DNA of 64,000 nucleotides from Syntrophomonas sp. (GCA_016841425.1 JAENZE010000009.1:62001-126000), one strand, 5' to 3'; positions 2,938 through 58,829 are shown, counted from the stretch's first letter. The notes: generated by a model from the letters alone, not told the origin. Program-made: numbers and translations.

Positions 2938-3178
2938 AAAATGCTTTGATCCCCCTAAGGGACGAAAGCATTGTTTCCGCGGTACCACCCAAATTAATCA
3001 GGCATAATCCGCCTGATTCACTCATTACCTTTAACGGTGGCAACCGGTAAGACCTACTACTATTTCAATCTACTGCTCCCAGGTGAATTCGTCTGCACTT
3101 TTCCCTGGCTGTACTTACAGTCGCTGATACAGCCTCCCTGAAAGGATTAATTACAGCTTACTTGTCCTGTTCATCGCA
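2938..3178 (-). promoter_or_regulatory. T-box leader of pheS-pheT
   Basis: Read on the minus strand, this leader opens with GATGAACAGGACAAGTAAG, a typical T-box 5' end. It holds the hallmark antiterminator T-box GGGTGGTACCGCG (2977-2990) and ends in a terminator hairpin. A UUC triplet at 3085-3087 is a candidate Phe specifier codon, in keeping with the downstream genes. In T-box RNAs uncharged cognate tRNA pairs with both elements and stabilises the antiterminator. I did not fold stem I, so the specifier assignment is an inference. Confidence 0.9.
2940..2972 (-). terminator. T-box regulated terminator before pheS
   Basis: On the minus strand AATGCTTT and AAAGCATT form the outer stem with an inner GTCCC/GGGGGAT helix, followed by a T-rich run. 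It lies just 3' of the T-box sequence and would be the alternative to the antiterminator. Confidence 0.88.
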
Positions 3179-3356
3179 TTTATATTTATTGCGCTTGCTT
3201 ATTGGGTAATAAGCATCTTATACAGAAGATAATAGGCGATGCATCCAGATGTTTCGAATAGCTGCCAGTATATATCAGCTTGAGCTATCATCATGGGTTC
3301 ACCCTCCACTCTCTAAATACGGGAATATTTCGTAGTTCTTACCCCATACTGCAGTA
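3179..3356. other. Intergenic region upstream of the T-box
   Basis: It should hold the pheST promoter, but I could not pick a convincing -35/-10 pair. A short inverted repeat (CTTATT, GGGT loop, AATAAG) lies at 3198-3213. No open frame of note. Confidence 0.4.
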
Positions 3357-41138: not shown

Positions 41139-41834
41139 CTAAATATATTTTTTGAATCGGCACAGGATAGTATAAAAGGTCCCTGCGAACAGTAGTGAAA
41201 AAACCACATTGCCCACAGCATGAATCCCATCAAACACCAGGCTGGAAGCATATACCGCCAGAAATGTTTTGATGTTCAAAGGATACATAAAAGCTGCCCA
41301 ATGCCAGATATTTATAACCCAGCCATAAAAAAAACCACATAATCCAGCCAGTACAGCAAAACTCAACAGCCTGAACCCTGCTTGTTTAAGCGATAGCATG
41401 GAAGCTAGAGCTCCGCACATTCCCCAGCAGAACATTTGCCAGGGGGTCCAGGGACCCTGTCCAAGAAAGAAATTGGAGACCAGAGCAGCTATAGCACCGA
41501 CCATAAACCCGATTTGAGCACCAAAAACATAACCGGTTATCATTATAATAAATGTAGCCGGTTGGAGGCTGACTATAGCGCTGAAAGCAATTCTGGATAC
41601 GGCTGCCAGAGAAGACATGGTTGCAATTAAGGCAATCATCTTTGAATTCATTTGTTTTTTTTCAAACTGCCAGAAAAAAGCCAGAATCCCCAAAAATACT
41701 ATCAGGGTAGAGAGAAGTGCCCAGTTTAGATTGTATAAAGGGTTTTCTGGTATTATAGTCGCAGACAGAAGCAGTAGAATGATTAGTATACTGAATATAT
41801 ACCTGCTGCGATAAATGAAACTGTTCTTGATCAT
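41139..41834 (-). CDS. ECF transporter S component, probable corrinoid binder
   Basis: A 231-residue integral membrane protein that resembles ECF substrate-capture (S) components: LAAVSRIAFSAIVSLQPATF, ITGYVFGAQIGFMVGAIAAL, SNFFLGQGPWTPWQMFCWGM and a last helix with DGIHAVGNVVFSLLF. Two extra helices precede this core. It is the last gene of a cobalamin-riboswitch operon that also encodes EcfT and a double EcfA, so the substrate is probably a corrinoid; this is inferred from context. The ATG at 41834 lies 4 bases after the stop of the upstream gene; an ATG at 41855 lies inside that gene. Confidence 0.82.
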   Translation of the reverse strand: MIKNSFIYRSRYIFSILIILLLLSATIIPENPLYNLNWALLSTLIVFLGILAFFWQFEKKQMNSKMIALIATMSSLAAVSRIAFSAIVSLQPATFIIMITGYVFGAQIGFMVGAIAALVSNFFLGQGPWTPWQMFCWGMCGALASMLSLKQAGFRLLSFAVLAGLCGFFYGWVINIWHWAAFMYPLNIKTFLAVYASSLVFDGIHAVGNVVFSLLFAGTFYTILCRFKKYI

Positions 41835-41838
41835 TATC

Positions 41839-43383
41839 CTACTGCACCTCTCCATTTATCTTCAATTTATCCCTTAGTTTCATTATGCTATATGCACATT
41901 GAGCCCTGTTCGCGGCAGCTTCCGGGTTAAAATCCGGATATAGCAAGCCGTTCTCGCTGGCAGTTTTCACCAACTCTAAATACCAGTAGGGTCCCGACCC
42001 GGTGGCAGGAGTTTCTATCGGCAAAGTCCTAACCAATATAGCCGCCAACTGAGCTCCAGTAATACTTTGACCGGGGCGAAATTCGCCACCTGGCATACCA
42101 TTAACATATCCCTTTTCGGTGCAGGTCTTTATATAGCTCAAAGCCCAGAAATTTTCAGCCACATCAATAAAACCTGACTCACCACTATATGAACCATTGG
42201 CCAGGTTCATCCCCTTAACCAGCATGGCGGCAAATTCAGCTCGATTCACCGGGTTTTCTGGTCTGAATGTTCCATCCGGGTATCCATTCAGTACATCTGC
42301 TTTTACCAGTTCGCTTATCTGCTGGTAAGCCCAGTAAGCTTCGGGCACATCATTCAATACCAGCCCATTTGCTGGTTCAGGCGGTTGTTTCGCTGAATTA
42401 TTCTCCGGGACACAGGAAATATTGCTTAAAGATTGCAGGGCTGCAGCAGAAGTCTTAATGGGACCCGCAATCACGCCTGGCATATAATAAAAAAGCCCGC
42501 TTTGGTCCTGAAGTCCCAGCAAATGAGTCACAGCATTATTATCCTGTACCGACCAAGCTTCACTTGCAGGTAACTGGCCTGCGGCCAGCAGAGCTTGTAT
42601 TACCGAAGCATCTGTGCTGGCATTAGACTTGGTACCAGCCAGATATCCAGAACTGAAGCCCCCATCCTCTGCCTGACAGGTCTCTAAATAATCTAGACTG
42701 TTTTTAATAACTTCTGAACAACTGGGGTCTTCACCCAATAGTGTTAAAACCTGTATGGCTACCGCTGTATCATCAGCATCGCTGGGTATCCCTTCACACC
42801 ACCCGAAACCTCCATCGTTGTTCTGGCGGTTCATGAGCCATTGCCTGGCCTTCTCCTTATCCGGTATTTCCTGCCCGGCAGAATCAAGAGCCAGAATAGA
42901 CCACATATGCGAATTTATGAAACCCTTTTCACCCTTAAGCACTTGTGCGAATTGTCCGTCTTCTTGTTGAAAAGATAATATACTCTGCACCAGGTTCGTC
43001 CCGTGATATATCATCCCCTGGTCTGCGGATGTTAAAGCCAGCAAGGTGCGGGCATAATCACAAGTGTTATTTAGATCCTCCGGACAGTTATTGAGAAAAT
43101 CTACCGGATTCTTACTGCCTGGAGTCCATTCCCTGGCATTAATATCCTCTCCTGCAGCAGCCAGAGCCATAATAACCCAGCAGGTTACTGATTGGCTGCT
43201 TTCCTGTCCTTCCTTATAAGGAAACCCACCATCCTGGTTCTGAGTAGTGTGCAAATATCTTACCGTCTTTTGTATCTCTGCGGCAAAATTTTCTCCCTGA
43301 GATGCGGATACGCTAACGCAGCTGCTGAAAAATACCAGCACTATGATAAATGCGATAATAATTTTATGTCTTTTTAAAACCAT
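41839..43383 (-). CDS. Secreted alpha/alpha-barrel protein with SLH anchor
   Basis: A 514-residue exported protein. A signal peptide (about 6-27) is followed by prenyltransferase/squalene-cyclase-type repeats (about 35-320) with QNQDGGFPYK, RQNNDGGFGWCEG and CQAEDGGFSSGYLAG, which fold as an alpha/alpha barrel. Three SLH repeats (about 345-510), with GYPDGTFRPENPVNRAEFAA as the clearest, attach it to the cell wall. The barrel is the fold class of the main domain of animal cobalamin carriers. The DxDD motif of true cyclases is not seen. Start at ATG 43383 with GGAGG upstream. Probable corrinoid-binding surface protein, by context. Confidence 0.78.
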   Translation of the reverse strand: MVLKRHKIIIAFIIVLVFFSSCVSVSASQGENFAAEIQKTVRYLHTTQNQDGGFPYKEGQESSQSVTCWVIMALAAAGEDINAREWTPGSKNPVDFLNNCPEDLNNTCDYARTLLALTSADQGMIYHGTNLVQSILSFQQEDGQFAQVLKGEKGFINSHMWSILALDSAGQEIPDKEKARQWLMNRQNNDGGFGWCEGIPSDADDTAVAIQVLTLLGEDPSCSEVIKNSLDYLETCQAEDGGFSSGYLAGTKSNASTDASVIQALLAAGQLPASEAWSVQDNNAVTHLLGLQDQSGLFYYMPGVIAGPIKTSAAALQSLSNISCVPENNSAKQPPEPANGLVLNDVPEAYWAYQQISELVKADVLNGYPDGTFRPENPVNRAEFAAMLVKGMNLANGSYSGESGFIDVAENFWALSYIKTCTEKGYVNGMPGGEFRPGQSITGAQLAAILVRTLPIETPATGSGPYWYLELVKTASENGLLYPDFNPEAAANRAQCAYSIMKLRDKLKINGEVQ

Positions 43384-43400
43384 ATTGTCTTCCCTCCTAA

Positions 43401-45107
43401 TCATAAGGCTGTGACTATCTCTTTACTCTTGATTGAGGTGGTTAGTCCCAGTAAAGCCTTTACCCCTTCATTAACAGTTATCACATCATCAACAATATCG
43501 TTGAACAATTTCGCTATTTGCGGTGAATAGAAAGTGGAGTGCTGAAGAACGTCATACTTGCTTCCCTGTTCTATAATCCCTCCATCAAACATCAGGCAAA
43601 TATCGCGGGCGTATTCAGCGGCAAAATCAACGTCATGGGTTACCATCATCACCGCTGTTCCCTGCCTATTAATCTCCAGCAAAAGCTTACCCAACTCTTC
43701 TTTTAATTGATAATCAAATCCCCTGGTTGGCTCATCCAGCAGAAGCAGCCGTGGTTTGCTTACCAAGACTGTTGCCAGGGCCACCCGCTGCCGTTCCCCG
43801 GTACTTAAATCTCGAGGATTACATTGACTATAAGGCTCTAGATTAAACCTGTTGATTATCTCATCACCGTACCCATCCTCGCTTAAGTCTAAATTCTTCA
43901 TGGTAAATTGAATCTCTTCTCTAACACTGGGCATAAATAAGTAGTCGTTGGGGTCCTGTGATAGATATGCAACTGAACGGGCCATATCCTCTATGGGCAG
44001 TTCCCTGGTGTCTTTTCCTGCGACCTTGATGCTGCCTCGATTGGGCTTTAATAATCCATTAATATTTTTCAGCAGGGTGGTTTTGCCGGCCCCATTCTCC
44101 CCCAGAACCGCAATGAAATCGCCCTCCCGAATCTTAAGATTTACGTTTTTTAGAGCCTCTCCGGTATTAGGATAGGTAAACCAGAGATTTTGAATATCAA
44201 CCAGATTCTCTCTTGAATCTATTTCTGAAATAGCTACTGGATCCAGAGCTGAGTTAAAGCTATTTTGACCCCTGGTCTCAGGGATATAAGAATTAATAAA
44301 CTGACGGCCTTGTTTAACTGTTAGGGGCAGATCCTTAAATCCTGCCCTGGCAAATAACCGGGGCAAAGGAGGCAGGTATGATACGGGGGCTTTTTGCATC
44401 CAAATTCCACTGGATCTATTCCCTGCTTTCAAATCAGCAGATATCCCGCCGTTATCCATGACCAAAATTCTATCCGCCAAATGGCAGCATCTTTCCAGCC
44501 GCTGTTCGATCATTATGATGGTAGTTCCGTTGTCTTCATTCAACCTTCTAATTATGTTGAGCAGTTCTTCAGCAGCAACCGGGTCCAGCTGAGAAGTAGG
44601 CTCATCCAGGAGCAAAACCCCGGGATGCATGGCCAATACTCCTGCCAGAGCTACCTTTTGCTTTTGTCCACCTGATAATTCAGCTACATTACTGTCTAAA
44701 TGTGGAGATAATCCCAGTGAACTGCTCATCTCCATAACCCTTCGTTTCATGAGTTTATCAGGCAGACCCAGATTTTCCAGGCCGAATGCTATTTCCTGCT
44801 CTACGTTCATCATTACTAACTGGCTTTCCGGATTCTGGAATACTATACCCACCTCCTGTACCAGTTGGTGATGACTCATTTGAGCTATCTCTTTGCCATC
44901 CAGAGATATTTTCCCCTGCAAAGTTCCATTATAAAAACCAGGAGCCAGACCTGATATAGTGCGCAGGAGGGTTGACTTTCCACTTCCCGAGTTCCCTACA
45001 ATTAACACAAACTGGCCTTCGAAAATATCGAGATTTATCCTGTTCAAAGCAGGCTTAATAGTATCCGGGTAATAATAACTTAAATCCTGGATTTTAATAT
45101 CGGCCAT
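43401..45107 (-). CDS. ECF transporter energy-coupling ATPase, two fused ABC domains
   Basis: A 568-residue protein holding both ECF ATPases in one chain. Domain 1 (about 1-225) has Walker A GNSGSGKST (38-46), signature LSGGQKQ and LLLDEPTSQLD; domain 2 (about 305-530) has GENGAGKTT (336-344), LSTGERQ and LLLDEPTRGFD. It powers uptake through EcfT and the S component. The ATG at 45107 lies 6 bases after GGGGGTG and overlaps ecfT by 28 bases; a GTG at 45116 is less likely. Confidence 0.9.
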   Translation of the reverse strand: MADIKIQDLSYYYPDTIKPALNRINLDIFEGQFVLIVGNSGSGKSTLLRTISGLAPGFYNGTLQGKISLDGKEIAQMSHHQLVQEVGIVFQNPESQLVMMNVEQEIAFGLENLGLPDKLMKRRVMEMSSSLGLSPHLDSNVAELSGGQKQKVALAGVLAMHPGVLLLDEPTSQLDPVAAEELLNIIRRLNEDNGTTIIMIEQRLERCCHLADRILVMDNGGISADLKAGNRSSGIWMQKAPVSYLPPLPRLFARAGFKDLPLTVKQGRQFINSYIPETRGQNSFNSALDPVAISEIDSRENLVDIQNLWFTYPNTGEALKNVNLKIREGDFIAVLGENGAGKTTLLKNINGLLKPNRGSIKVAGKDTRELPIEDMARSVAYLSQDPNDYLFMPSVREEIQFTMKNLDLSEDGYGDEIINRFNLEPYSQCNPRDLSTGERQRVALATVLVSKPRLLLLDEPTRGFDYQLKEELGKLLLEINRQGTAVMMVTHDVDFAAEYARDICLMFDGGIIEQGSKYDVLQHSTFYSPQIAKLFNDIVDDVITVNEGVKALLGLTTSIKSKEIVTAL

Positions 45108-45994
45108 TTCATCCACCCCCAGTTTAATATTGCAGGGACCAGCAAAGCTAACGCGGTAATAGCTGCTCCAATCAATTCCAGCGGATCAACTTGCTCGAGT
45201 ACGGGATAATAACTAAAGGCAGACCATCCCTTCACTGCTGACCATATTCCAACTGCCATAGCAATTGTCGTCAGAATTAAAATAATGTAATCCCGAGGTC
45301 GCCATAAATCCTTCTCATAACAACTCCTGGGACCACTTCCGTACCCCCTGGCGTACATGGACTCCGCCAGCTGTAAAGATCTTTCCATACAAGACAACAG
45401 CATTATGCTGATAATGGGTATTGAATTTCTGGCCCGCTCCCACCAACTTCCTGTGGCCAGTTTAACTCCCCTACAGCGCTGTATTCCACTGATCCTTTGA
45501 AAATCCTTCATCATCAGTGGAAATAATCGCACTGATAATGTAATGGCAAGAACCGACTTTCCTCCCATTTTGCTGAAAAGCCTTAAAGCTTTATCTGGAT
45601 TTACTGCATAAGTATATAGACAAAATATACTGATGATAACCAGTAGTCGTACACTCATCCCCAGCCCGTAAGCAATAGCTTCCAGGCTTATTTCCAGCGA
45701 TCCAATCAGTGGTATTTCCGGGCCTCTGTATATAATAGTAGTTCCTGCCCTGGCAAACAGAGTATTGATTGCCACTATAAATAAGACCATTACAATACTG
45801 AATTTCATGTAACCTTTCCATTCCGCGAGATTGCCTGCGGCGGCTATGACCACCCAAACCGACATCAATAAAACCAACAGATAAATCGGATGAGAAAATA
45901 CCAAGGCCAGAATAAACACGATTCCAATAAAGGTCATCTGCGTAAATGGATGCAGTTTAAATATAAGATTATCTTTAGAATTATAAGTAAGCAT
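45080..45994 (-). CDS. ECF transporter transmembrane component EcfT
   Basis: A 304-residue membrane protein of the EcfT/CbiQ family. It starts with NSKDNLIFKLHPFTQMTFIG, as EcfT proteins do, and has the coupling helices with the conserved Ala-Arg-Gly in AESMYARGYGSG. A C-terminal extension adds two helices (about 230-290). It bridges the ATPase pair and the S component. Gap to the upstream lipoprotein gene is 19 bases; it overlaps the ATPase gene. Confidence 0.9.
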   Translation of the reverse strand: MLTYNSKDNLIFKLHPFTQMTFIGIVFILALVFSHPIYLLVLLMSVWVVIAAAGNLAEWKGYMKFSIVMVLFIVAINTLFARAGTTIIYRGPEIPLIGSLEISLEAIAYGLGMSVRLLVIISIFCLYTYAVNPDKALRLFSKMGGKSVLAITLSVRLFPLMMKDFQRISGIQRCRGVKLATGSWWERARNSIPIISIMLLSCMERSLQLAESMYARGYGSGPRSCYEKDLWRPRDYIILILTTIAMAVGIWSAVKGWSAFSYYPVLEQVDPLELIGAAITALALLVPAILNWGWMKWPILKSRI

Positions 45995-46013
45995 AACTTC
46001 ATCCCATCTTATT

Positions 46014-47153
46014 CTAATAACAAGGCACAGATATTACTTCATCTGCAGTTATGGCCGCATTATACCTGCCTGCAATCTTACCTGGATTGTTAAGCAGTAT
46101 GTCTAACGCAGCCCGAAAGCCCTGAACATCAGTACCGGATACTAGCCACAATGGGCAAGGATCACCCAGACCATTGCCGGTGGCTGCTATTACTCCAGCA
46201 CTTCCATCAATATCCCTCTTTACCTGACCCTGAATATCCATTAACGCCAGCTTCTTCTCATTAAAATGAATCCCAGTGCCATTACGTTTATAGGCCTGAT
46301 TGAAATCGCTGATAAAAGCGCTATGCTTCAATTCCTCCCACTCACCCAGCACTATTGTAGGTCCCTGACGGTTGGCCAGCAATCCTTCATCAATCTGCAT
46401 TACCCTTATACTGGATACTCCCCTTGCTTTTAAAGCCTTCTCCAATCGGTATCCTTCTTCCAGGTCATCAGTTGGGCACATTATAGTGGTTGATCTTATT
46501 TTACCCTCATAACCATGCAGAAATGGTTCGGGATAGCATCCAACTACTGCCGCGTTGGCAGGCCCTGCTTTCCAGGCATGATAATCCCACCATATTACTT
46601 CACCCGGGCTAATTATGTAATCTGAACCCCCAACATTAGGGCATATACCATTCACATAATAAAACCAGTCCTGCATTTCCCCGCTTAAGCCTCCGCTGGA
46701 ACCCTTAAGTCCATTGATGCTGTCAATAAAGGTTCCTCCATATCTGGTCTCTACCTTCATTTTAGCCTGCAAGAGATCCATGATAGTCCAACTTTCCTGA
46801 ATTTCCACCGTTTCCTGTAATATACCCTGGCCTCCAAAATTCCGGGTTACCAACAGCTTAACCTGCTCAACCGAGTTATTTGCAGTCATGGGCTGCACAT
46901 TATCTCTGCCGGAGTCTTCAGCTGCAGTTTCAACAGCGGACTGGATATTTTCTGTCTCGGTTTCAGGATTCTGCAAGGTGGTTTCCTCTTCTGGAACATT
47001 TGGCTCAGCATCCACTGTTCCCCCACTATCCAGGGCAACCCGCTCCTGCTCATTGAGGGCGGCCGGAGTGCTGTTACTTTTAGTAACAGCACAACCAGCT
47101 AACATTATCATTAGTATTATCAATAGAGTTATGAAACACGTCCTTTTTTTCAT
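46014..47153 (-). CDS. DUF4430 lipoprotein, probable corrinoid-binding
   Basis: A 379-residue lipoprotein: signal peptide with lipobox LAGC near residue 20, a Glu/Thr-rich linker, then a DUF4430 domain (about 95-200) with WTIMDLLQAKMKVETRYGGT, DWFYYVNGICPNVG and GEVIWWDYHAWK. DUF4430 is similar to the small beta domain of transcobalamin and intrinsic factor. The C-terminal 180 residues form a second domain I do not recognise, with PTIVLGEWEEL and GDPCPLWLVSGTDVQGFRAA. ATG at 47153 with GGAGG upstream. It is the likely membrane-side receptor handing ligand to the ECF complex; this is inference. Confidence 0.78.
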   Translation of the reverse strand: MKKRTCFITLLIILMIMLAGCAVTKSNSTPAALNEQERVALDSGGTVDAEPNVPEEETTLQNPETETENIQSAVETAAEDSGRDNVQPMTANNSVEQVKLLVTRNFGGQGILQETVEIQESWTIMDLLQAKMKVETRYGGTFIDSINGLKGSSGGLSGEMQDWFYYVNGICPNVGGSDYIISPGEVIWWDYHAWKAGPANAAVVGCYPEPFLHGYEGKIRSTTIMCPTDDLEEGYRLEKALKARGVSSIRVMQIDEGLLANRQGPTIVLGEWEELKHSAFISDFNQAYKRNGTGIHFNEKKLALMDIQGQVKRDIDGSAGVIAATGNGLGDPCPLWLVSGTDVQGFRAALDILLNNPGKIAGRYNAAITADEVISVPCY

Positions 47154-47195
47154 TCCTGTTCCTCCATGTACTAATAAACGCACTTAAAAACAGCC

Positions 47196-50100
47196 CTATA
47201 GCTCATATCCAGTAACAACCAGGTAATTCAGATATCTGTATACAGTAACTGCAGCTTCCGCCCGGCTGAGCGAATTATGGCCCCGGAAAGTTCCATCCTC
47301 GTATCCGTTCATCAGCTTCGCCTGGCAGGTGAATCTCAAGCCCGCCAAAGCCCAGGTGGGAATTTCGCTTTGATCAGCATAGCTTAATTCTCCTCCGGTT
47401 AAATCGCTCTGAGGCTGCAGCCTCTGCAGAATACTAGCTATCTCATTACGGGTAATCGGCTTATCCGGTCTGAAAGTGGCATCTGGATACCCGCTAATAA
47501 TGCCGCTGGCACAAGCAGTTTCTACCGCATCAGCAAACCAGTCACCCGGTCTTACATCGGTAAAACTCATGCCTGAGTCAGCTGTTGAGGATAGATTCAA
47601 AGCTTTTACCATCAACTGTACGAATTCTGCCCGACTGATATATCTGCCCGGTTCAAAGCCGGTGCCCGTACCCTTTATGATCCCCTGCCCGGCCAAAACC
47701 TCTATTGCCTCTCGTGCCCAATTTATGCCATTGTTAACATCGGGAAAACTGCTCCGGGTTGGAAAATCAACCACAGAGAAGGCAGTAAAATGATCGATCC
47801 TGAATATAATCAGCCCCGTTTCCAGGTCAATAATGGCTGGAATAGGTATCCACTCGTTTTTCCCAGTATCATACCAGGCCGGGCTCAACCTGTCGATGTT
47901 CATGTCTCCAGTAATAGCCATTTGTATACAAATTGTTAAAGGCTGGTTAAACTTGCTGCCATCCGGACCAAATTGGTAAACTGATGAACCTATTCTGAGT
48001 GCAAACTGCTGCGGAATGCTATCCTCCGCTACCTCATCTATAGTGATGACCACAGTCTCTGATACCGCATGGGCTGGTACCAGAACAGCTATTTCCTGCA
48101 GTTCATCTACTATCAGGGTTTCATCCTCATTAACATTTGTTTGTATGAAAACCTGATTGTTATCCAGCTCATTTTGCCGTGCGTTTAGCTGTTCAGCATT
48201 CATTTGTTTATCAGCGTTGATAACTGATGTTTTGCCCTGGAGCTGTTCCAATTGCTCAGAGTACAGGCTAATAATATCTTCTATCGATTGTGCCAAGGGG
48301 CTCATAACAGCTGCTGAAGGAACAATTATACTGCCCCTGAATAAATCATCCCCGGCAGGCCCATCTGAATATGGGTCATAACTATACCACCAGATCACCT
48401 CATCTCCCGGTTCTACTTCACTTTCAAATGCCGATATGGATAAGGGAACATCACTGATCTTACACATCCATCCATTCATATTCTCGTTGCTCTGGCCTTC
48501 AATGTCGGTTACCAATCCAGTGGTATATGACCAGCTCAAGCCGGTGGCATCCAGGGCTCCTACAGCAGTCAGGCCATAGGTATCATCCGGGTCCATGGTG
48601 ACCCGCTGCGGAGAAAACAGAAGTTCACCATCGCTTCCTACTACTGCAATGTATATTTTGATATTGTCATCACTGTCATGGCTGCCACCAGTACTGTCGG
48701 AATTTTCTACCGTAAGCAGTGCTGATCCAGATATACCTCCAAAACCTGCAGTGATACTAGTCATGCCTGCTGCCATACCGGTTGCCAGGCCCTCATTTAT
48801 GCTGGCTATATCGGTATCTTCTGCTGCCCAAGTTGCGCTGGAGGTTACTTCTTCTGTAGTGCCTGCTAAAGTATATGCCTCGGCTGTAAACTGCTGGGCT
48901 TCGCCCTTATCTATAACAGCACTGGAAGGACTCACCTCTAAACCCAGGACATTACCCCTGTTGATAGCTGCTCCCATCTGCAAATATGCATCCAGAACCC
49001 AGGTATTGGCCGCTATATTTTTATAAGTTCCAAACGTACCGTCACTATTTTCGGCCTCATGTAAAAGATAATCTATTGGGCTATTTCCTTCCCCGCTCAC
49101 CCAACTTTCAGGATTAATTCCACGAAGTCCAAGAGTATATACCACTTCCGATGTGTTTACTACCGGATCTTCCCAACTGGCATATTGAAAACTCCCATCA
49201 TCAATCTGACCGGCTGCCAGCCACTCCAATCCTCTTTCTATTGCATCTGACATTTCCTGTTCCTGGTCTCCGGCATATGGTTCAAGATATGTTAAGGCTC
49301 GTATTGCCTCAGCGGTAGTCATCAAGTCATCATATGCCCATGCTCCGCTTACAGAATCCTGTCCTCCCAGTATCAAACTTATCGCCTGATCGGTGTCAAT
49401 CTTATCTATATCTCCGGCTCTGCCCAAAATTTCTAAGGCTGGTATATCACTGAAGGCACTGCTGTCAAAGGAACCGTCCCCACTCGCTGCCTGTCGGTTC
49501 TGCAGTATCTGCAGCAGCTCAGCGGCCTGATCATCTTCTCCCATGCTCCGGGCAGCCAGATACTCTCCTGCTATCCTTTTAGCAGAGGACTGATTAGCTG
49601 TTCCTTCATCGGCTATGCTGCTGTCTGCCAGGCTCATTACCCGGGATGTAAAATCTTCTCTATCATATATCCAGCTGTCCAATTCGGCTCCAGCTGCATC
49701 CAGTATGTAAGCATCATAAGCGCTGAAATTTCCGTAAACCCCATCCACTGCCTGTCCTGCTTGATAAAATCCATAGTTGTTCCTTACCGCTTGTAAGGCC
49801 AGGTCATCTAAATCGCCAGGGCTGGAACTATCTTGTACGGTCACATCAGCAGAATTGCTTGCCTCTTCGTATTCGGCTGTAACTGCTGTCGTTCCTGCTG
49901 CTATACCGGTGGCCAACCCCATATCTATGCTGGCTAAATTAGGATCTTCTACGGTCCAGATGGCATTAGATGTTACATCTTCGGTGGTACCTGCAAAAGT
50001 ATATGCCTCGGCTGTAAACTGCTGGGCTTCGCCCTTATCTATAACAGCACTGGAAGGACTCACCTCTAAACCCAGGACATTACCCCTGTTGATAGCTGCT

Positions 50101-51074
50101 CCCATCTGCAAATATGCATCCAGAACCCAGGTATTGGCCGCTATATTTTTATAAGTTCCAAACGTACCGTCACTATTTTCGGCCTCATGTAAAAGATAAT
50201 CTATTGGGCTATTTCCTTCCCCGCTCACCCAACTTTCAGGATTAATTCCACGAAGTCCAAGAGTATATACCACTTCCGATGTGTTTACTACCGGATCTTC
50301 CCAACTGGCATATTGAAAACTCCCATCATCAATCTGACCGGCTGCCAGCCACTCCAATCCTCTTTCTATTGCATCTGACATTTCCTGTTCCTGGTCTCCG
50401 GCATATGGTTCAAGATATGTTAAGGCTCGTATTGCCTCAGCGGTAGTCATCAAGTCATCATATGCCCATGCTCCGCTTACAGAATCCTGTCCTCCCAGTA
50501 TCAAACTTATCGCCTGATCGGTGTCAATCTTATCTATATCTCCGGCTCTGCCCAAAATTTCTAAGGCTGGTATATCACTGAAGGCACTGCTGTCAAAGGA
50601 ACCGTCCCCACTCGCTGCCTGTCGGTTCTGCAGTATCTGCAGCAGCTCAGCGGCCTGATCATCTTCTCCCATGCTCCGGGCAGCCAGATACTCTCCTGCT
50701 ATCCTTTTAGCAGAGGACTGATTAGCTGTTCCTTCATCGGCTATGCTGCTGTCTGCCAGGCTCATTACCCGGGATGTAAAATCTTCTCTATCATATATCC
50801 AGCTGTCCAATTCGGCTCCAGCTGCATCCAGTATGTAAGCATCATAAGCGCTGAAATTTCCGTAAACCCCATCCACTGCCTGTCCTTCTTGATAAAATCC
50901 ATAGTTGTTCCTTACTGCCTGTAAGGCCAGGTCATCAATATCGCCAGCATCATCGGCCTGGACAAAAGCCGGGTTAATAAAAGGCAGCAATAAACTCACG
51001 ATAAAAACAATAGTCGCCAACCGATTAAATAATGATTGTTTCTTTCCCCTAAACAACCTAATCCCTCCATTCAA
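47196..51074 (-). CDS. Large SLH-anchored protein: two barrel plus Ig-like units and a DUF4430 domain
   Basis: A 1292-residue exported protein. Signal peptide 1-40; then two nearly identical 376-residue units (from about 48 and 424), each an alpha/alpha-barrel region of prenyltransferase-like repeats followed by a BIG2-type Ig domain (VLGLEVSPSSAVIDKGEAQQ). A DUF4430 domain follows (about 810-905; MNGWMCKISDVPLSI, GDEVIWWYSYDPYSDGP), then a helical linker, a beta domain ending FRIDHFTAFSVVDF, and three SLH repeats (about 1105-1290; GYPDATFRPDKPITRNE). Barrel plus DUF4430 matches the layout of intrinsic factor. It is first gene after a cobalamin riboswitch, so it is very likely a surface corrinoid-capture protein. 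Confidence 0.82.
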   Translation of the reverse strand: MNGGIRLFRGKKQSLFNRLATIVFIVSLLLPFINPAFVQADDAGDIDDLALQAVRNNYGFYQEGQAVDGVYGNFSAYDAYILDAAGAELDSWIYDREDFTSRVMSLADSSIADEGTANQSSAKRIAGEYLAARSMGEDDQAAELLQILQNRQAASGDGSFDSSAFSDIPALEILGRAGDIDKIDTDQAISLILGGQDSVSGAWAYDDLMTTAEAIRALTYLEPYAGDQEQEMSDAIERGLEWLAAGQIDDGSFQYASWEDPVVNTSEVVYTLGLRGINPESWVSGEGNSPIDYLLHEAENSDGTFGTYKNIAANTWVLDAYLQMGAAINRGNVLGLEVSPSSAVIDKGEAQQFTAEAYTFAGTTEDVTSNAIWTVEDPNLASIDMGLATGIAAGTTAVTAEYEEASNSADVTVQDSSSPGDLDDLALQAVRNNYGFYQAGQAVDGVYGNFSAYDAYILDAAGAELDSWIYDREDFTSRVMSLADSSIADEGTANQSSAKRIAGEYLAARSMGEDDQAAELLQILQNRQAASGDGSFDSSAFSDIPALEILGRAGDIDKIDTDQAISLILGGQDSVSGAWAYDDLMTTAEAIRALTYLEPYAGDQEQEMSDAIERGLEWLAAGQIDDGSFQYASWEDPVVNTSEVVYTLGLRGINPESWVSGEGNSPIDYLLHEAENSDGTFGTYKNIAANTWVLDAYLQMGAAINRGNVLGLEVSPSSAVIDKGEAQQFTAEAYTLAGTTEEVTSSATWAAEDTDIASINEGLATGMAAGMTSITAGFGGISGSALLTVENSDSTGGSHDSDDNIKIYIAVVGSDGELLFSPQRVTMDPDDTYGLTAVGALDATGLSWSYTTGLVTDIEGQSNENMNGWMCKISDVPLSISAFESEVEPGDEVIWWYSYDPYSDGPAGDDLFRGSIIVPSAAVMSPLAQSIEDIISLYSEQLEQLQGKTSVINADKQMNAEQLNARQNELDNNQVFIQTNVNEDETLIVDELQEIAVLVPAHAVSETVVITIDEVAEDSIPQQFALRIGSSVYQFGPDGSKFNQPLTICIQMAITGDMNIDRLSPAWYDTGKNEWIPIPAIIDLETGLIIFRIDHFTAFSVVDFPTRSSFPDVNNGINWAREAIEVLAGQGIIKGTGTGFEPGRYISRAEFVQLMVKALNLSSTADSGMSFTDVRPGDWFADAVETACASGIISGYPDATFRPDKPITRNEIASILQRLQPQSDLTGGELSYADQSEIPTWALAGLRFTCQAKLMNGYEDGTFRGHNSLSRAEAAVTVYRYLNYLVVTGYEL
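48868..49758 (-). repeat. Copy 2 of an 891-bp exact direct repeat
   Basis: I find no difference from the segment at 49996-50886 when reading them side by side. The offset is 1128 bases (376 codons), so the frame is kept. It covers the second barrel unit of the large SLH protein. Confidence 0.9.
49996..50886 (-). repeat. Copy 1 of the 891-bp exact direct repeat
   Basis: Partner of 48868-49758. The full duplicated unit is longer (1128 bases), but the flanks, including the Ig-like part, have begun to differ. Confidence 0.9.
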
Positions 51075-51199
51075 GTTTACAAAATATGAATACTCAATTG
51101 TTACCAGTTTGTTGCTGGTAATATCAGTCCCATACTCGCTAACCCCGGAGATTTAAACACATAACACAATGTACATGATTTCCATATTTAAAAATAAAT

Positions 51200-51228
51200 G
51201 GAACTCCGTCAGTATATAACGGAGTTCC
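51200..51228 (-). terminator. Riboswitch-controlled terminator
   Basis: A 10-bp perfect stem GGAACTCCGT / ACGGAGTTCC with a 9-base loop, followed by ATTTATTTTT on the minus strand. It lies between the cobalamin aptamer and the large SLH gene. Confidence 0.88.
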
Positions 51229-51257
51229 TCTTGAGAAGGGCATATATCAAGTAATGG

Positions 51258-51445
51258 GAACACTCGCCTATTCCGCGTAGACAACGGTGTTCATTCAGCA
51301 AGCCCCGGTCTCCTGGCTCAGGATCATCATTCCTCCACGCCTTCCCGGACTCCTCATATCCAGTGGCATCTTTGTGGATTCACTTCCCCTTTACAGTGGC
51401 GCGACCACGCCGGATTCTAACCGGCTTCCCGGGTTCCTGCCTAAC
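51258..51445 (-). promoter_or_regulatory. Cobalamin riboswitch
   Basis: On the minus strand the leader carries the conserved cobalamin aptamer pieces in order: GCGCCACTGT (51393-51402) in the core, the B12 box AGCCAGGAGACCGG (51305-51318), and a following hairpin bounded by GAACAC / GTGTTC (51258-51292) that can form the kissing-loop arm. A terminator follows, so B12 binding should stop transcription of the six genes downstream. This directly links the operon to corrinoids. Confidence 0.93.
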
Positions 51446-51467
51446 AAACCTTAATTTAATTGTTTAA

Positions 51468-51495
51468 ACTATAACTCAAGCAAATTATACTGCAA
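51468..51495 (-). promoter_or_regulatory. Candidate promoter of the riboswitch operon
   Basis: TTGCAG (51490-51495), 16-base spacer, TATAGT (51468-51473) on the minus strand, about 20 bases before the aptamer. It touches the stop of the M24 gene. Confidence 0.5.
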
Positions 51496-51496
51496 C

Positions 51497-52702
51497 TCAT
51501 GATGATAGTAAAATATTATCATAAGGAATTACAGTAAGATCGTCTGGCAAAATGGTTATTTTTTCAACTCCTGATTTGGTCACTAACCAGGTGTTTTCTA
51601 TCCCTGCAATCCCCATCCCAGGGATAACAAATTTGGGTTCCAGTGCTATAACCATACCTGCTTCTAATTCAACATTGAAACCTTTAGCAATTACTGGTCT
51701 TTCATCCAGTTCCAGTCCTACTCCATGTCCAACAAACTTAACTCTCTCCGAGCCATAACCCATGAAATTTTGGCTCAGCCCTGCTCTATCAGCAATACCA
51801 ATAGCTCGCTCATACAGGTCACTGGCTACTACCCCTGGTTTAACCTGATCTATAAGCGTTTCCTGGATTTCCAACGCAACTTGGAAAGCATACTTTAACC
51901 TGTGAGGCAAGACCCCTACTACGTATAAGCGGGTTTGATCAATGTTATATCCATCGAATACCCCCACATAATCCAGGTAAACGGGATCATTAATTTGTAT
52001 TCTTCTCTCACCCGGTCCCTGGGGGAAGAATGCTCCCATGCCCATGCCAGCTGTGACTCCGTCGTTAAAACCCGAAATACAACCGTTGGGACCTGACAGA
52101 AAGTGTCCATAAAAAAATTCCTGGTTGAAACCACGCATACGTATGCAGCCCTGGTGTCCATGATCTCTTAAGGCTATTTCGACCCTGGCAGCAATAGCAA
52201 GTTCTGACAACCCCTGCTTTATTAGATCAGGAACATACGAGAAAGCATCGGCCATGCTTTTCCCTGCTTTTTTCATTATTGCTATTTCAAATGGACTCTT
52301 GGTAGCCCTCAAATCTGCAATCCAGTTGCTGGCATCAAGCAATTCGGTTTTAGGAAAGGTTTTTTTCACGCTTAGAAAAGCAGAGACAGGGAGTACATCG
52401 TATTCCAGACCTAATCGCTCTGGCAGCTGCTGACCCAGCTCACCCAGCTTTTCAGGAATATACTTGTAGTTGTTAATCGAAATGATATTCCACGGACATT
52501 CATTAGCTGCCCGGGATATGCTCTTACGACAGAATAACACCGGTTCACCACTGACCGGTATATAAAGCCGGGCGTTCTGCATGGTGCCACTGAAATAATA
52601 CAGGTCAACATTCTGTAGAATTAGTACGGCATCACATTCATCAGCCTTCATCATGTCCTGAAGACCCTTAATGCGCCGGTGCAGTTCCTCTTTGGGTGTC
52701 AT
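51497..52702 (-). CDS. M24 family metallopeptidase (Xaa-Pro aminopeptidase/creatinase type)
   Basis: A 401-residue protein with the creatinase N-terminal domain (about 1-130) and the pita-bread M24 domain. Candidate metal ligands are visible: Asp in YLDYVGVFDGYNIDQTR, His in FVGHGVGLELDE, Glu in VIALEPKF and Glu in GIAGIENTW. Members cleave Xaa-Pro bonds or act on non-peptide substrates such as creatine. It ends the mutase-linked gene run. ATG with GGAAGGAGAAAGGGG upstream. Substrate unknown. Confidence 0.88.
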   Translation of the reverse strand: MTPKEELHRRIKGLQDMMKADECDAVLILQNVDLYYFSGTMQNARLYIPVSGEPVLFCRKSISRAANECPWNIISINNYKYIPEKLGELGQQLPERLGLEYDVLPVSAFLSVKKTFPKTELLDASNWIADLRATKSPFEIAIMKKAGKSMADAFSYVPDLIKQGLSELAIAARVEIALRDHGHQGCIRMRGFNQEFFYGHFLSGPNGCISGFNDGVTAGMGMGAFFPQGPGERRIQINDPVYLDYVGVFDGYNIDQTRLYVVGVLPHRLKYAFQVALEIQETLIDQVKPGVVASDLYERAIGIADRAGLSQNFMGYGSERVKFVGHGVGLELDERPVIAKGFNVELEAGMVIALEPKFVIPGMGIAGIENTWLVTKSGVEKITILPDDLTVIPYDNILLSS

Positions 52703-54707: not shown

Positions 54708-55097
54708 TTATAGTTGATTATTAACTGTGTGGTTTATCCATTCTATAATGGATTCTGTACTTGCTGAAGGTGAAAATACCTGGGCTAAAGCACCTGCTTC
54801 TTTAAGGCTTTCTTGATCCTTTATAGGAATCAACCCTTCCGCAAACACGATAGTATTCCCGCAGCCTCTTTCTTCCAGAGCCTGCTTAAGCTCAGGGAAG
54901 ACTGCCATATGGGAACCCCTGTAGGCACTGATTCCAACCACATCAACTGCTTCTTTGTATATTTCTTCTACTATCTCATCCATACTCCTATATAGGCCTG
55001 TGTATATTACCTCCATACCTCCGACTTCCTTAAGTCCTCGGGCTAAAGCTCTTATTTTTTTATTGTGGGAATCTAATCCGACTATTCCCAATAACAC
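54708..55097 (-). CDS. Divergent B12-binding-domain protein, paralog of the mutase small subunit
   Basis: A 129-residue Rossmann-type B12-binding domain, alignable end to end with the mutase small subunit. The corrinoid contacts are altered: DxHxxG reads DSHNKK (His kept), the SxL position reads SAYRGSH, and the GGG before IIP reads AEG. Cobalamin binding may be weakened or changed. GTG 55097 has no clear ribosome site, and the alignment suggests the true start may be a few codons further upstream. It follows meaB by 41 bases. Confidence 0.8.
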   Translation of the reverse strand: MLLGIVGLDSHNKKIRALARGLKEVGGMEVIYTGLYRSMDEIVEEIYKEAVDVVGISAYRGSHMAVFPELKQALEERGCGNTIVFAEGLIPIKDQESLKEAGALAQVFSPSASTESIIEWINHTVNNQL

Positions 55098-55138
55098 CTT
55101 AATTCTGGCTATACAAATACACCTGCCTTCCCTGCTGA

Positions 55139-56098
55139 CTATTTGTTCAGGTATTTTTTAGATATTTCCTCGGCAAGTGAATATGGGTCGGTTTCTTTAC
55201 TCAACAGTTTTTCTACCATGAAGTCGAATTCCCCAGTTGCTGCTAGTTCACTCAATACTGGTTCCAAAATAGCAGCACGAAGGGCATCGTTCATTTCTGT
55301 TATAACCTTGCGAATTGCCCGTTCCTTTAGTTGATGACGTTCAACCAGATGCTTATAGTGTTCGTCGATCTTATCACACAGTTTTTCGACGCTCGCAGCA
55401 AAGGAATGCGGTTCCAGACTGCTCTCTAACATTAATATCGGAGGACGCCAACCATTGGGGAAGTTTCCCGAATTCAGCATATTAAGCGTCTCTTTGTAAA
55501 GCTTTCTGGCTCCATCTTTATCCGCCTTATTGATTACGAAAATATCCGCAATCTCCATTAGTCCAGCTTTAATAGCCTGTACTTCATCTCCCATGCCGGG
55601 GACCAGAACTACTATAACCGTATGAGCATGATTGATGATGTCAACTTCCTGCTGTCCTACGCCAACGGTTTCAACCAGGATTATGTCTTTTCCCATGACA
55701 TCAAGGACATGGATACCATCTCCTACCGCCTTGGAAAGACCTCCCATAGCCCCACGAGTAGCTAAACTCCGAACAAAAACTCCTTTATCCTCGGCATGCC
55801 TGAGCATGCGAATTCTATCACCCAAAAGCGCACCGCCCGTAAAAGGGCTGGTCGGATCTACAGCAAGAACTCCCACAGTTTTCTCTCTCTGACGCATAGT
55901 GAATATTAGTTGATCAGTTATGGTGCTTTTACCTGCTCCCGGTGAACCTGTTATACCTACCACATGAGCTTTACCGGTATAAGGAAAAATATGCTTTATC
56001 GCTTTAGTGGTTTCAGGTATATCGTCTTCAATATTTCTTATGAGGCGGGAGGCCGCACGAATGTCTCCCGCCATAGCTCTTTTGCCTAATTCTTCCAT
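55139..56098 (-). CDS. meaB: Methylmalonyl-CoA mutase-associated GTPase MeaB
   Basis: A 319-residue G3E-family GTPase that guards and loads adenosylcobalamin on the mutase. Walker A is GITGSPGAGKST (about 47-58), followed by DPTSPFTGGALLGDRIRM and the NKAD motif for guanine. Length is normal. It starts 4 bases after the mutase small-subunit stop. Confidence 0.96.
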   Translation of the reverse strand: MEELGKRAMAGDIRAASRLIRNIEDDIPETTKAIKHIFPYTGKAHVVGITGSPGAGKSTITDQLIFTMRQREKTVGVLAVDPTSPFTGGALLGDRIRMLRHAEDKGVFVRSLATRGAMGGLSKAVGDGIHVLDVMGKDIILVETVGVGQQEVDIINHAHTVIVVLVPGMGDEVQAIKAGLMEIADIFVINKADKDGARKLYKETLNMLNSGNFPNGWRPPILMLESSLEPHSFAASVEKLCDKIDEHYKHLVERHQLKERAIRKVITEMNDALRAAILEPVLSELAATGEFDFMVEKLLSKETDPYSLAEEISKKYLNK

Positions 56099-56102
56099 AT
56101 CG

Positions 56103-56507
56103 TCAATCCCTCGGTTTGATGTTTTCGTTTATCCAGTCTACTATGGAATCGAGGGTTGCACCGGGAGTAAAGAGAGCTTTTAGTCCTGCGTCATAAAGAG
56201 GCTGCATATCCTGTTCAGGTATTATTCCGCCGCCAACAACTGTAATGTCGTCAGCGCCCTGTTCCTGAAGCTGCTGGGCTACTGCCGGGAAAAGGTATCT
56301 ATGAGCCCCGGAAAGGCAGCTAAGTCCAACCATGTCCACGTCTTCCTGTATCGCTGCTCCTACTATCTGTTCAGGAGTTTGGTGACAACCGGTGTATATT
56401 ACCTCAAATCCGGCATCACGAAAAGTCCGGGCCAGAACCCTGGCTCCACGGTCATGTCCGTCCAAACCAGGTTTAGCAAGCAGTATACGTATCTTTCTAT
56501 CAGCCAT
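56103..56507 (-). CDS. Methylmalonyl-CoA mutase, B12-binding small subunit
   Basis: A 134-residue cobalamin-binding chain with the intact base-off motif LDGHDRG, SCLSGAH and [11 protein letters not shown]. It pairs with the separate catalytic chain encoded 21 bases upstream; the split form is typical of archaea and some Clostridia. AGGAGG precedes the ATG. Confidence 0.96.
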
Positions 56508-56528
56508 ATTGTAAACCTCCTTTAATTT

Positions 56529-58208
56529 CTAGTACATGCCAGGGTCACGGTATTCGCCGTAGACTTCCCGATATACATCGCAGATTTCCTGGACGCTGCA
56601 GTAACTCTTAACTGCCTCGATACAATAAGGCATGACATTTTCACCTTTCTTGCAGGCGGTTCTAATATCATCGAGACATTCCCTTACTTTGCGGCTGTCA
56701 CGTTTTCTTCTTACCGCATTCAAACGTTCAATTTGCTCCTTTTCAACGGAATCATCAATCTCAAGGAAAGGAATTTCCACATCCTCATCAGTGTTATACT
56801 TGTTGATCCCGATCATAATTTTTTCACCGGAATCTATCTGGCGCTGGTACTTATAGGCAGCATCCGAGATTTCCATTTGCGGGAATCCTTTCTCGATTGC
56901 TTTGACCATACCACCCATATCGTCAATCTTATGAATGTAATCCCAGGCCTTTTCTTCCATTTCGTTGGTCAGGGCTTCTACAAAATAGGATCCAGCCAGC
57001 GGGTCGATAGTATTAACCACTCCAGTTTCCTCAGCAATAATCTGCTGGGTTCTGAGAGCAATCTGTACCGCATGGTCGGAAGGCAGACAGAGTACCTCAT
57101 CCAGAGAATTGGTATGCAGGGACTGGGTACCTCCTAATATAGCTGCCAGAGCTTCGGTTGCAGTTCTGATAACATTATTGTATGGCTGCTGGGCAGTCAG
57201 TGAACATCCAGCAGTCTGAGTATGGAAACGCATCCACCAGGATCTCTCATCTGTGGAACCGTACCTTTCGCGCATGGCCTTGGCCCAGATTCTCCTGGCA
57301 GCACGGAGTTTAGCGATTTCTTCAAAGAAGTCTATATGAGAATTGAAGAAGAAAGATAAGCGGGGAGCAAACTCATCTACATGCAAACCTTTACGGGCAA
57401 TAACATCCTCAACATATTCCATTCCATCCCTCAGGGTAAAGGCTAACTCTTGTACTGCTGTGGCCCCAGCCTCTCTTATATGGTATCCGCTTATACTGAT
57501 GGTGTTCCAGCGAGGAACATACTTGGTTCCAAATTCTACCGTATCACTGATAAGTTTAACCGAGGGTTCCGGGGGACACATCAGCGTCTTCTGGGCAATA
57601 AATTCCTTCAGCATGTCATTCTGAATAGTTCCTCCGATTTTAGTGAGCGGTATGCCTTGAATCTCCGCAGCAGCACAGTACATGGCCCATAAAGCTGTAG
57701 CTGGCGGATTAATAGTCATGGAGGTAGTAATATTAGCTAACGGAATCCCTTTTATCAGAGTAAAAAAATCGTCAATCGTGTCTATGGCTACCCCGCATTT
57801 GCCGCATTCACCTCGGGCTTTAGGAGAGTCGGTGTCATAACCCATAAGCGTCGGAAAATCGAAAGCGGTACTCAAGCCAGTTTGGCCGGAGTTTAAAAGA
57901 TAATGCCAGCGCTGGTTGGTTTCCTCAGCGCTTCCCATACCAGCAAACATCCTAAATGTCCAATATTTCCCACGGTAACCGGTCACCTGGTTGCCTCGCA
58001 GATAAGGATATTGACCAGGATATCCAATATCTTTTTCAAAATCCATGTTTTTGATATCTTCGGGTCCATATAGCCGCTTTATTTCCAAGTCGGACACGGT
58101 AGTCCATTTTTCTTTTTGGTCAGCATGTTTGGCCACCGTCTTTTTAACTTCATCTTCCCATTTTTTACGCATAGTACTTGATTTATCCAATAATTCTTCA
58201 GTAAACAA
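56529..58208 (-). CDS. Methylmalonyl-CoA mutase, catalytic large subunit
   Basis: A 559-residue TIM-barrel chain that interconverts succinyl-CoA and (R)-methylmalonyl-CoA using adenosylcobalamin. Typical segments are YPYLRGNQVTGYRGKYWTFR, LNSGQTGLSTAFDFPTLMGY, TQTAGCSLTAQQPYNNVIRT and HTNSLDEVLCLPSD. The tyrosine and threonine/glutamine pattern of methylmalonyl-type (rather than isobutyryl- or ethylmalonyl-type) mutases seems kept, though I did not align it. The B12-binding domain is in the next gene. Confidence 0.94.
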   Translation of the reverse strand: MFTEELLDKSSTMRKKWEDEVKKTVAKHADQKEKWTTVSDLEIKRLYGPEDIKNMDFEKDIGYPGQYPYLRGNQVTGYRGKYWTFRMFAGMGSAEETNQRWHYLLNSGQTGLSTAFDFPTLMGYDTDSPKARGECGKCGVAIDTIDDFFTLIKGIPLANITTSMTINPPATALWAMYCAAAEIQGIPLTKIGGTIQNDMLKEFIAQKTLMCPPEPSVKLISDTVEFGTKYVPRWNTISISGYHIREAGATAVQELAFTLRDGMEYVEDVIARKGLHVDEFAPRLSFFFNSHIDFFEEIAKLRAARRIWAKAMRERYGSTDERSWWMRFHTQTAGCSLTAQQPYNNVIRTATEALAAILGGTQSLHTNSLDEVLCLPSDHAVQIALRTQQIIAEETGVVNTIDPLAGSYFVEALTNEMEEKAWDYIHKIDDMGGMVKAIEKGFPQMEISDAAYKYQRQIDSGEKIMIGINKYNTDEDVEIPFLEIDDSVEKEQIERLNAVRRKRDSRKVRECLDDIRTACKKGENVMPYCIEAVKSYCSVQEICDVYREVYGEYRDPGMY

Positions 58209-58268
58209 CTATCAATCCCTCCTCAATTAAAAAGCCATTATCACTGTAAGTTAATAAGTAAACAGGTA

Positions 58269-58829
58269 TCAGTACTCAATACCGGCTCTGTCCTTGATAC
58301 CGGCATTATAATGATGTTTTATCTCTCTTACTTCACTGACCATATCAGCCAGCTCTTGTATGCTTTGCGAAGCATATCTGCCTGTTAAAATAAGGTCCAG
58401 CTCCGGGGGCTTGTTTTTAATCATGTCTATTATTTCGTCTTCCGGAACCAGGCAGAAATCTGCAACTACATTGATTTCATCCAGAATGACCATGTCATAA
58501 TCACCACTCTGAATTACTTCTTTTGCTTTGGCAAATCCCTCTTCGGCCAACTCCATATCTACAGTTGCCGGATTATCACGCATAACAAAGCTATCCAGCC
58601 CATATTGGAAAAACGCCAATTCGGGTAAGTATTTCCTCACTGCTACAACTTCACCATATACGCGTCCCTTCATAAACTGAATCATACATACCCGAAGTCC
58701 CTGGCCAGTAGCCCGTAAAGCCTGGCCAAACGCAGATGTCGTCTTGCCTTTGCCATTGCCGGTAATTACCATCACCAGTCCTTTTTTGGGTGATTTTTTT
58801 GCTCCATTATCGACGGGCAAGTTTTTCAT
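58269..58829 (-). CDS. btuR: Cob(I)alamin/cobinamide adenosyltransferase, BtuR/CobO type
   Basis: A 186-residue ATP-binding enzyme that makes adenosylcobalamin, the mutase cofactor. The P-loop GNGKGKTT (24-31) is followed by SAFGQALRATGQGLRVCMIQ, and DYDMVILDEINVV forms the Walker B region. The C-terminal RASRSIQEL-type segment reads GRYASQSIQELADMVSEVRE. It is the first gene of the mutase run. A TATAAT at 58861-58866 on the minus strand may be its -10. Confidence 0.94.
   Translation of the reverse strand: MKNLPVDNGAKKSPKKGLVMVITGNGKGKTTSAFGQALRATGQGLRVCMIQFMKGRVYGEVVAVRKYLPELAFFQYGLDSFVMRDNPATVDMELAEEGFAKAKEVIQSGDYDMVILDEINVVADFCLVPEDEIIDMIKNKPPELDLILTGRYASQSIQELADMVSEVREIKHHYNAGIKDRAGIEY

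Follow-up and report, generated by a model that had tools for sequence, protein, structure and literature searches.

Surface proteins that bind vitamin B12 are well studied in Bacteroides. It is, to our knowledge, poorly known how Gram-positive bacteria collect scarce corrinoids on the outer side of the membrane. A stretch of Syntrophomonas DNA of 64,000 nucleotides (the window) raises this question in a concrete form, because it carries a compact operon that a first-pass annotation had read as a surface corrinoid-capture system built like animal intrinsic factor, placed behind a cobalamin riboswitch. Our analysis indicates that the locus is likely to be a corrinoid scavenging operon under cobalamin-riboswitch control, in which a CbrT-type ECF importer is combined with carrier-like capture proteins outside the cell. 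The operon and its leader consist of the following features.

51484..51512, minus strand: promoter-like site TTTACT-17-TATAAT, immediately 5' of the aptamer (consensus match only)
51285..51468, minus strand: cobalamin riboswitch aptamer, RF00174 (90.7 bits, E 3.7e-21, model positions 1-189)
51200..51228, minus strand: intrinsic-terminator-like hairpin of the riboswitch leader (12 pairs), then a T-rich tail
47196..51074, minus strand: gene 1, a predicted secreted wall protein of 1292 aa (Pfam/NCBIfam and our own HMMs)
50091..50918, minus strand: alpha/alpha barrel copy 1, gene 1 residues 53-328
48963..49790, minus strand: alpha/alpha barrel copy 2, gene 1 residues 429-704 (modelled)
48381..48617, minus strand: DUF4430 domain of the wall protein, gene 1 residues 820-898 (Pfam, our own HMMs and model)
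47247..47747, minus strand: three SLH motifs of gene 1, the predicted wall anchor (Pfam and our own HMMs)
46014..47183, minus strand: gene 2, a DUF4430 lipoprotein of 389 aa (lipobox LAGC seen in the sequence)
46572..46859, minus strand: DUF4430 domain of the lipoprotein, gene 2 residues 109-204
46023..46547, minus strand: BcsB-like C-terminal domain of the lipoprotein, gene 2 residues 213-387 (absent in many homologues)
45080..45994, minus strand: gene 3, EcfT transmembrane component, 304 aa
43401..45116, minus strand: gene 4, two fused EcfA ATPases, 571 aa
41839..43404, minus strand: gene 5, an alpha/alpha barrel with three SLH motifs and without DUF4430, 521 aa (Pfam and our own HMMs)
41139..41855, minus strand: gene 6, ECF S component, CbrT homologue, 238 aa

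The leader has the parts expected of a cobalamin-responsive switch. In an Rfam scan of the window, the aptamer matched the cobalamin covariance model over its full length, with a score far above the gathering score of 31.5. The terminator-like hairpin at 51228-51200 reads GGAACTCCGTTATATACTGACGGAGTTCC + ATTTATTTTT, and folding of the leader beat 200 of 200 shuffles (z -3.1). Promoter-like sites, which are consensus matches only, were seen three times in the region against 1.5 expected. Downstream lie six tightly packed genes, all on the minus strand, of which three neighbouring pairs overlap and the remaining gaps are 12 and 19 nt. The first-pass description of a riboswitch with a terminator ahead of six genes is thus borne out, and membership of the RF00174 family, together with riboswitches upstream of the relatives' loci described below, supports the prediction that cobalamin controls the operon.

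Pfam/NCBIfam and our own HMMs likewise confirmed what had been proposed for all six products: the 1292-aa protein, the lipoprotein, EcfT, the fused EcfA pair, the barrel-SLH protein and the S component. Gene 1 has the order barrel-Big_2-barrel-Big_2-DUF4430-conserved unnamed domain-three SLH motifs; the Big_2 domains between its barrels and DUF4430 are an addition to the earlier description. Its two barrel-Big_2 units form a 1128-bp tandem duplication, and the barrel DNA of the copies is 99.8% identical. In one congener, the two barrel copies are 95.7% identical to each other and diverge by about 26% from those of the window species, whereas a third congener has a single copy. This pattern points to repeated duplication or homogenisation within lineages.

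CbrT is a transporter component that was reportedly predicted by Rodionov in 2009. When a profile of the gene 6 S component, built from 26 homologues, was compared with the PDB, it found L. delbrueckii CbrT (6FNP chain A) at E 2.6e-24, and the next match stood at 0.015. The rest of the ECF module is complete, with an EcfT (CbiQ, 6.5e-14) and two EcfA ATPases (TIGR04520 and TIGR04521, two stretches each). ATP-driven transport of cobalamin and cobinamide has been shown for ECF-CbrT of L. delbrueckii (PMC5997447), which this system resembles in its homologous S component, its ECF module and its cobalamin-linked gene context. The homology thus points to a likely class of substrate without recourse to the riboswitch, and it supports the earlier claim that the ECF complex imports a corrinoid, with a CbrT-type cobalamin importer as the assignment by homology. 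The L. delbrueckii transporter draws on a shared ECF module, whereas this operon encodes a dedicated EcfT and a fused EcfA pair; it also differs from the L. delbrueckii system in its riboswitch control and in its two wall-anchored alpha/alpha-barrel proteins.

The operon type is real and widespread: dozens of other bacteria, in Bacillota and beyond, carry it. Lipoprotein homologues were present in 45 of 151 relatives, and a cobalamin riboswitch lay upstream of the lipoprotein gene, within 7 kb and on the same strand, in 35 of 42 relatives' loci (expected, 0.11); six of the seven loci without one were cut by a contig end. We also collected 80 named loci by their CbrT gene, from Syntrophomonas, Moorella, Desulfotomaculum, Clostridium, Bacillus, Paenibacillus, lactobacilli, Dehalococcoidia and others, so the share of DUF4430 among them is not circular. 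Domains were counted on the 66 loci with more than 6 kb of upstream sequence. DUF4430 was found in 65 of these and an alpha/alpha barrel in 60, and 60 had the two together at the locus; barrel and DUF4430 shared one chain in 47, and one of them carried SLH motifs in 23. An Rfam scan of 26 CbrT loci placed a riboswitch upstream in 23, the exceptions being two lactobacilli and locus L093. Riboswitches thus do recur ahead of such clusters in other bacteria, as the survey proposed in the first-pass annotation was meant to determine. Among 299 Bacillota genomes, 91 had both CbrT and DUF4430, five and four had only one of the two, and 199 had neither (p 5.6e-65); this p-value is overstated, as related genomes are not independent, but the pattern nonetheless spans many families. 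An apparent DUF4430-EcfT fusion at locus L074, considered as a Rosetta-stone link, was ruled out because an assembly gap had been read as X.

The annotation had further proposed that DUF4430 resembles the small beta domain of the animal B12 carriers, and both sequence and predicted structure agree with this. A profile built from 75 DUF4430 domains of CbrT loci matched transcobalamin-1/haptocorrin best in the PDB (1.1e-6), followed by 3u7z, a bacterial DUF4430-like structure, transcobalamin-2 (0.005) and intrinsic factor (0.0075). The sole invariant column across all 75 domains is a tryptophan, and haptocorrin and transcobalamin have tryptophan in the aligned column. A profile of the whole lipoprotein returned nothing useful from the PDB, as its matches fell mostly on the low-complexity linker. 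When the lipoprotein was modelled with AlphaFold2 (pLDDT 92.8), its DUF4430 superposed on the haptocorrin beta domain with a Z of 13.9 (2.0 A over 95 residues), and on intrinsic factor, transcobalamin and 5np4, the transcobalamin beta domain on its own with cyanocobalamin bound, with Z of 12.7, 12.6 and 12.3, respectively. The transcobalamin beta domain binds cobalamin by itself, and when the alpha and beta domains are produced apart they come together on cobalamin (PMC5599065). By this precedent a lipoprotein with DUF4430 only could bind a corrinoid, and a carrier split between two chains is plausible.

The alpha/alpha barrels are linked to the carriers by fold and by domain order. A model of barrel 2-Big_2-DUF4430 from gene 1 (pLDDT 92.3, pTM 0.74) was searched over the PDB with Foldseek. 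Ranks 1-8 were rat, human and bovine transcobalamin and haptocorrin (E 6e-10 to 9e-9), chains that share both domains with the model, and intrinsic factor appeared at rank 11. The arrangement of the domains in this model is uncertain (whole-chain superposition rmsd about 15 A). Taken alone, the barrel matched the intrinsic factor alpha domain with a Z of 19.4 (2.9 A over 233 residues) and class II terpene cyclases with a Z of 22. In sequence, too, barrel profiles run against the PDB matched cyclases and no B12 carriers, which marks the barrel as prenyltransferase/cyclase-like; apart from one Pfam near-match, only searches by fold brought up the carriers. None of the window proteins matched the Pfam family Cobalamin_bind (PF01122) at E values up to 1, and 149 Bacillota genomes gave no match over the family's cut-off and two below it. 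By this profile, the window proteins are not members of the family. In one homologue, the barrel matched over residues 6-223, which covers most of the alpha domain, and came close to the cut-off of 25 bits, with 23.6 bits and E 3.1e-5; DUF4430 follows it. One of the two sub-threshold matches falls in a lone barrel-DUF4430-SLH gene that adjoins its own cobalamin riboswitch; the other has a DUF4430 gene on its contig, at a distance of about 3 kb.

The structural comparison with the carriers, which the first-pass annotation had suggested as a check, thus returned a likeness for DUF4430 and for the barrel-DUF4430 pair, and the pair matches nothing in the PDB better than transcobalamin and haptocorrin. 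The two outcomes that this annotation had named as grounds for rejecting it and that the analysis covered, an aptamer failing the covariance model and structures unlike the carriers, did not occur. As in intrinsic factor, haptocorrin and transcobalamin, an alpha/alpha barrel precedes the beta domain in a single chain, with Big_2 between them in gene 1 and directly joined in several homologues (for example, at loci L057, L053 and L067). Gene 1 differs from the animal proteins in this insertion, in its doubled barrels and in falling short of the Cobalamin_bind cut-off. The bacterial proteins are also anchored to the wall or membrane and tied to an importer, and their carrier function is a prediction. 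On architecture and context, the view that they work like the animal B12 carriers is well supported, and we consider it likely that the barrels and DUF4430 bind corrinoids.

The SLH motifs of the two window proteins matched Pfam at 9.3e-33 and 2.5e-25, and the genome encodes a homologue of the pyruvyl transferase CsaB (TIGR03609, 290.6 bits against 213.1), which supports SLH anchoring in this organism. The anchor differs by lineage: SLH motifs are used in Clostridia and Paenibacillus, LPxTA-type C termini in about a dozen Bacillus-like proteins and LPxTG in a few, and the protein at L057 is a plain lipoprotein that consists simply of barrel and DUF4430. That the barrel and DUF4430 are kept while the anchors are exchanged argues that attachment to the surface is part of the function.

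The same features allow other readings. The barrel and DUF4430 proteins could belong to the importer regulon and yet bind wall polysaccharide or protein, as scaffolds or adhesins, leaving only CbrT to handle the vitamin. SLH motifs and Big_2 domains would suit such a role, as would the C-terminal domain of the lipoprotein, whose model resembles BcsB (Z 12.8) and a wall-anchoring domain of a methanogen S-layer (Z 9.9), and a fold by itself is no proof of function. However, the BcsB-like domain is often missing where DUF4430 is retained, DUF4430 occurs almost exclusively alongside CbrT, and it is transcobalamins and haptocorrin that best match the barrel-DUF4430 pair, so we regard this explanation as unlikely. 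It is more improbable still, and the least credible reading, that the barrels are enzymes rather than carriers, either terpene-cyclase-like or acting on the corrinoid or its carrier. Class II terpene cyclases do give the barrel its top structural scores, and the 521-aa protein retains a DxDD-like DADDTA at residues 209-214, but only the third residue of this motif (D211) is invariant and its last Asp is replaced in relatives. Moreover, the gene 1 barrels of the window lack this motif, and the proteins are secreted and wall-anchored. Binding of corrinoids by carrier-like proteins remains our preferred reading. Against it speak the slightly better fit of the barrel to cyclases, the Cobalamin_bind result, the Big_2 domain that parts barrel from DUF4430, and the VVNT of both window barrel copies at a site where VxDT is the rule in relatives.

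What the captured corrinoid would be used for is suggested by a cluster of B12-dependent functions directly 5' of the operon on the same strand, with three other genes between this cluster and the riboswitch.

54708..58829, minus strand: adjacent B12-use cluster
58829-58269, minus strand: CobA-type adenosyltransferase
58208-56529, minus strand: acyl-CoA mutase large subunit
56507-56103, minus strand: acyl-CoA mutase B12-binding subunit
56098-55139, minus strand: MeaB
55097-54708, minus strand: second mutase C-terminal-domain-like (B12-binding-domain-like) protein

Genes for much of the anaerobic cobalamin pathway, CbiB and CobT among them, are also present in the genome, and its two other cobalamin riboswitches lie beside genes for cobalt uptake and corrin synthesis. 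The organism therefore can probably make cobamides and would use the operon for scavenging. Other FecCD permeases are present as well, so uptake through this operon is not its sole option; the idea that the operon is the genome's only source of corrinoids was dropped in view of the synthesis pathway. A related possibility, which we consider real but the less probable case, leaves the mechanism intact and changes the ligand, which would chiefly be a precursor of corrinoids, an incomplete corrinoid or cobamides other than cobalamin, taken up for salvage and remodelling. Cobinamide salvage would be useful to a cell with CbiB, CobT and much of the anaerobic pathway, ECF-CbrT of L. delbrueckii carries cobinamide too (PMC5997447) and haptocorrin binds analogues (PMC5599065), whereas the adjacent mutase cluster requires a complete adenosylcobamide.

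In the mechanism that we propose, low intracellular cobalamin would permit read-through of the leader. In the wall, corrinoid would then be bound by the 1292-aa protein, through its barrels and DUF4430 and anchored by SLH motifs, and by the 521-aa barrel-SLH protein, and the membrane-bound DUF4430 lipoprotein would hold it near the importer. CbrT would take it up, with EcfT and the EcfA pair driving import, and the imported corrinoid could supply other cobamide enzymes as well as the adjacent adenosyltransferase and mutase cluster. Two domains, or two chains, may close over one ligand, by analogy with split transcobalamin, a suggestion for which we see the case as evenly balanced. A directional hand-over from the wall protein to the lipoprotein and on to CbrT is an equally finely poised proposal.

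Parts of this system have been recognized before. Operons of this kind are already named CbrTUV (PMC6722938, PMC6593275), and an L. rhamnosus DUF4430 protein has been listed as an 'additional lipoprotein component of putative cobalamin ECF transporter' (PMC9963975), so that others have linked the DUF4430 lipoprotein to the importer. Annotations now call the barrel partners 'hypothetical' or 'fucose-binding lectin II'. The lectin label is used on a plasmid of L. plantarum, for a barrel that sits between CbrT and DUF4430. Our literature search, mostly outside subscription papers, came upon neither an account of wall-anchored intrinsic-factor-like proteins in Gram-positive bacteria nor a demonstration that these surface proteins bind B12. 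The first-pass view that such a relay is not well described thus holds for its wall-anchored, intrinsic-factor-like part and fails for the ECF importer, which was known, and for the lipoprotein, which was already labelled. The nearest counterpart outside Gram-positives is a functional one. BtuG, a beta-propeller, works with BtuB at the Gram-negative outer membrane. BtuG and BtuH are lipoproteins that bind B12 at the surface of Bacteroides (PMC6143338, PMC8941943) and capture the vitamin ahead of an importer, and the likeness to them is a functional analogy only.

These findings identify a widespread candidate for corrinoid capture in Gram-positive bacteria, present in about a third of the sampled Bacillota genomes and with a precise structural precedent. 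They give DUF4430 a likely, predicted function and point to testable binding proteins, predicted in Bacillus, Paenibacillus, Clostridium and lactobacilli, which bear on the competition for B12 in microbial communities. For the question of how intrinsic factor and transcobalamin arose, they also provide an outgroup from bacteria. We tentatively raise the idea, towards which we lean somewhat less than against it, that the two-domain architecture of the animal B12 carriers was invented long ago at the bacterial cell surface: a barrel and DUF4430, in one chain or split between wall protein and lipoprotein, would close over corrinoids and relay them from wall to membrane into CbrT, and the animal carriers may have descended from such proteins or share an ancestor with them.

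The first gene of the uptake operon (window 47196-51074, minus strand) carries its barrel-Big_2 units as a 1128-bp duplication with near-identical copies. The congener G003 has its own pair of these units, which are 95.7% identical, and genome G001 has the unit in one copy only. This distribution suggests recurrent duplication or gene conversion.

Two other features lie in the window:
54708-58829, same strand as the uptake operon and upstream of it: B12-use genes (adenosyltransferase, acyl-CoA mutase, B12-binding subunits and MeaB)
2955-3183: a T-box leader, which precedes the pheS gene (1885-2907)

Among the loci compared, a tandem pair of cobalamin riboswitch aptamers precedes the surface protein gene at L090:2475-3015 and likewise at L127:1115-1827. 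In genome G105, a solitary barrel-DUF4430-SLH gene (L159:6255-9707) has its own cobalamin riboswitch and lies on a separate contig from the importer operon. Two CbrT-DUF4430 loci (L107 and L137) are on contigs with archaeal MAG labels (Aciduliprofundum and Euryarchaeota), which may reflect transfer or misbinning. On an L. plantarum plasmid (NZ_CP013155.2), the barrel protein gene flanked by CbrT and DUF4430 (L158:9094-10146) is annotated as 'fucose-binding lectin II', which is probably a misannotation.
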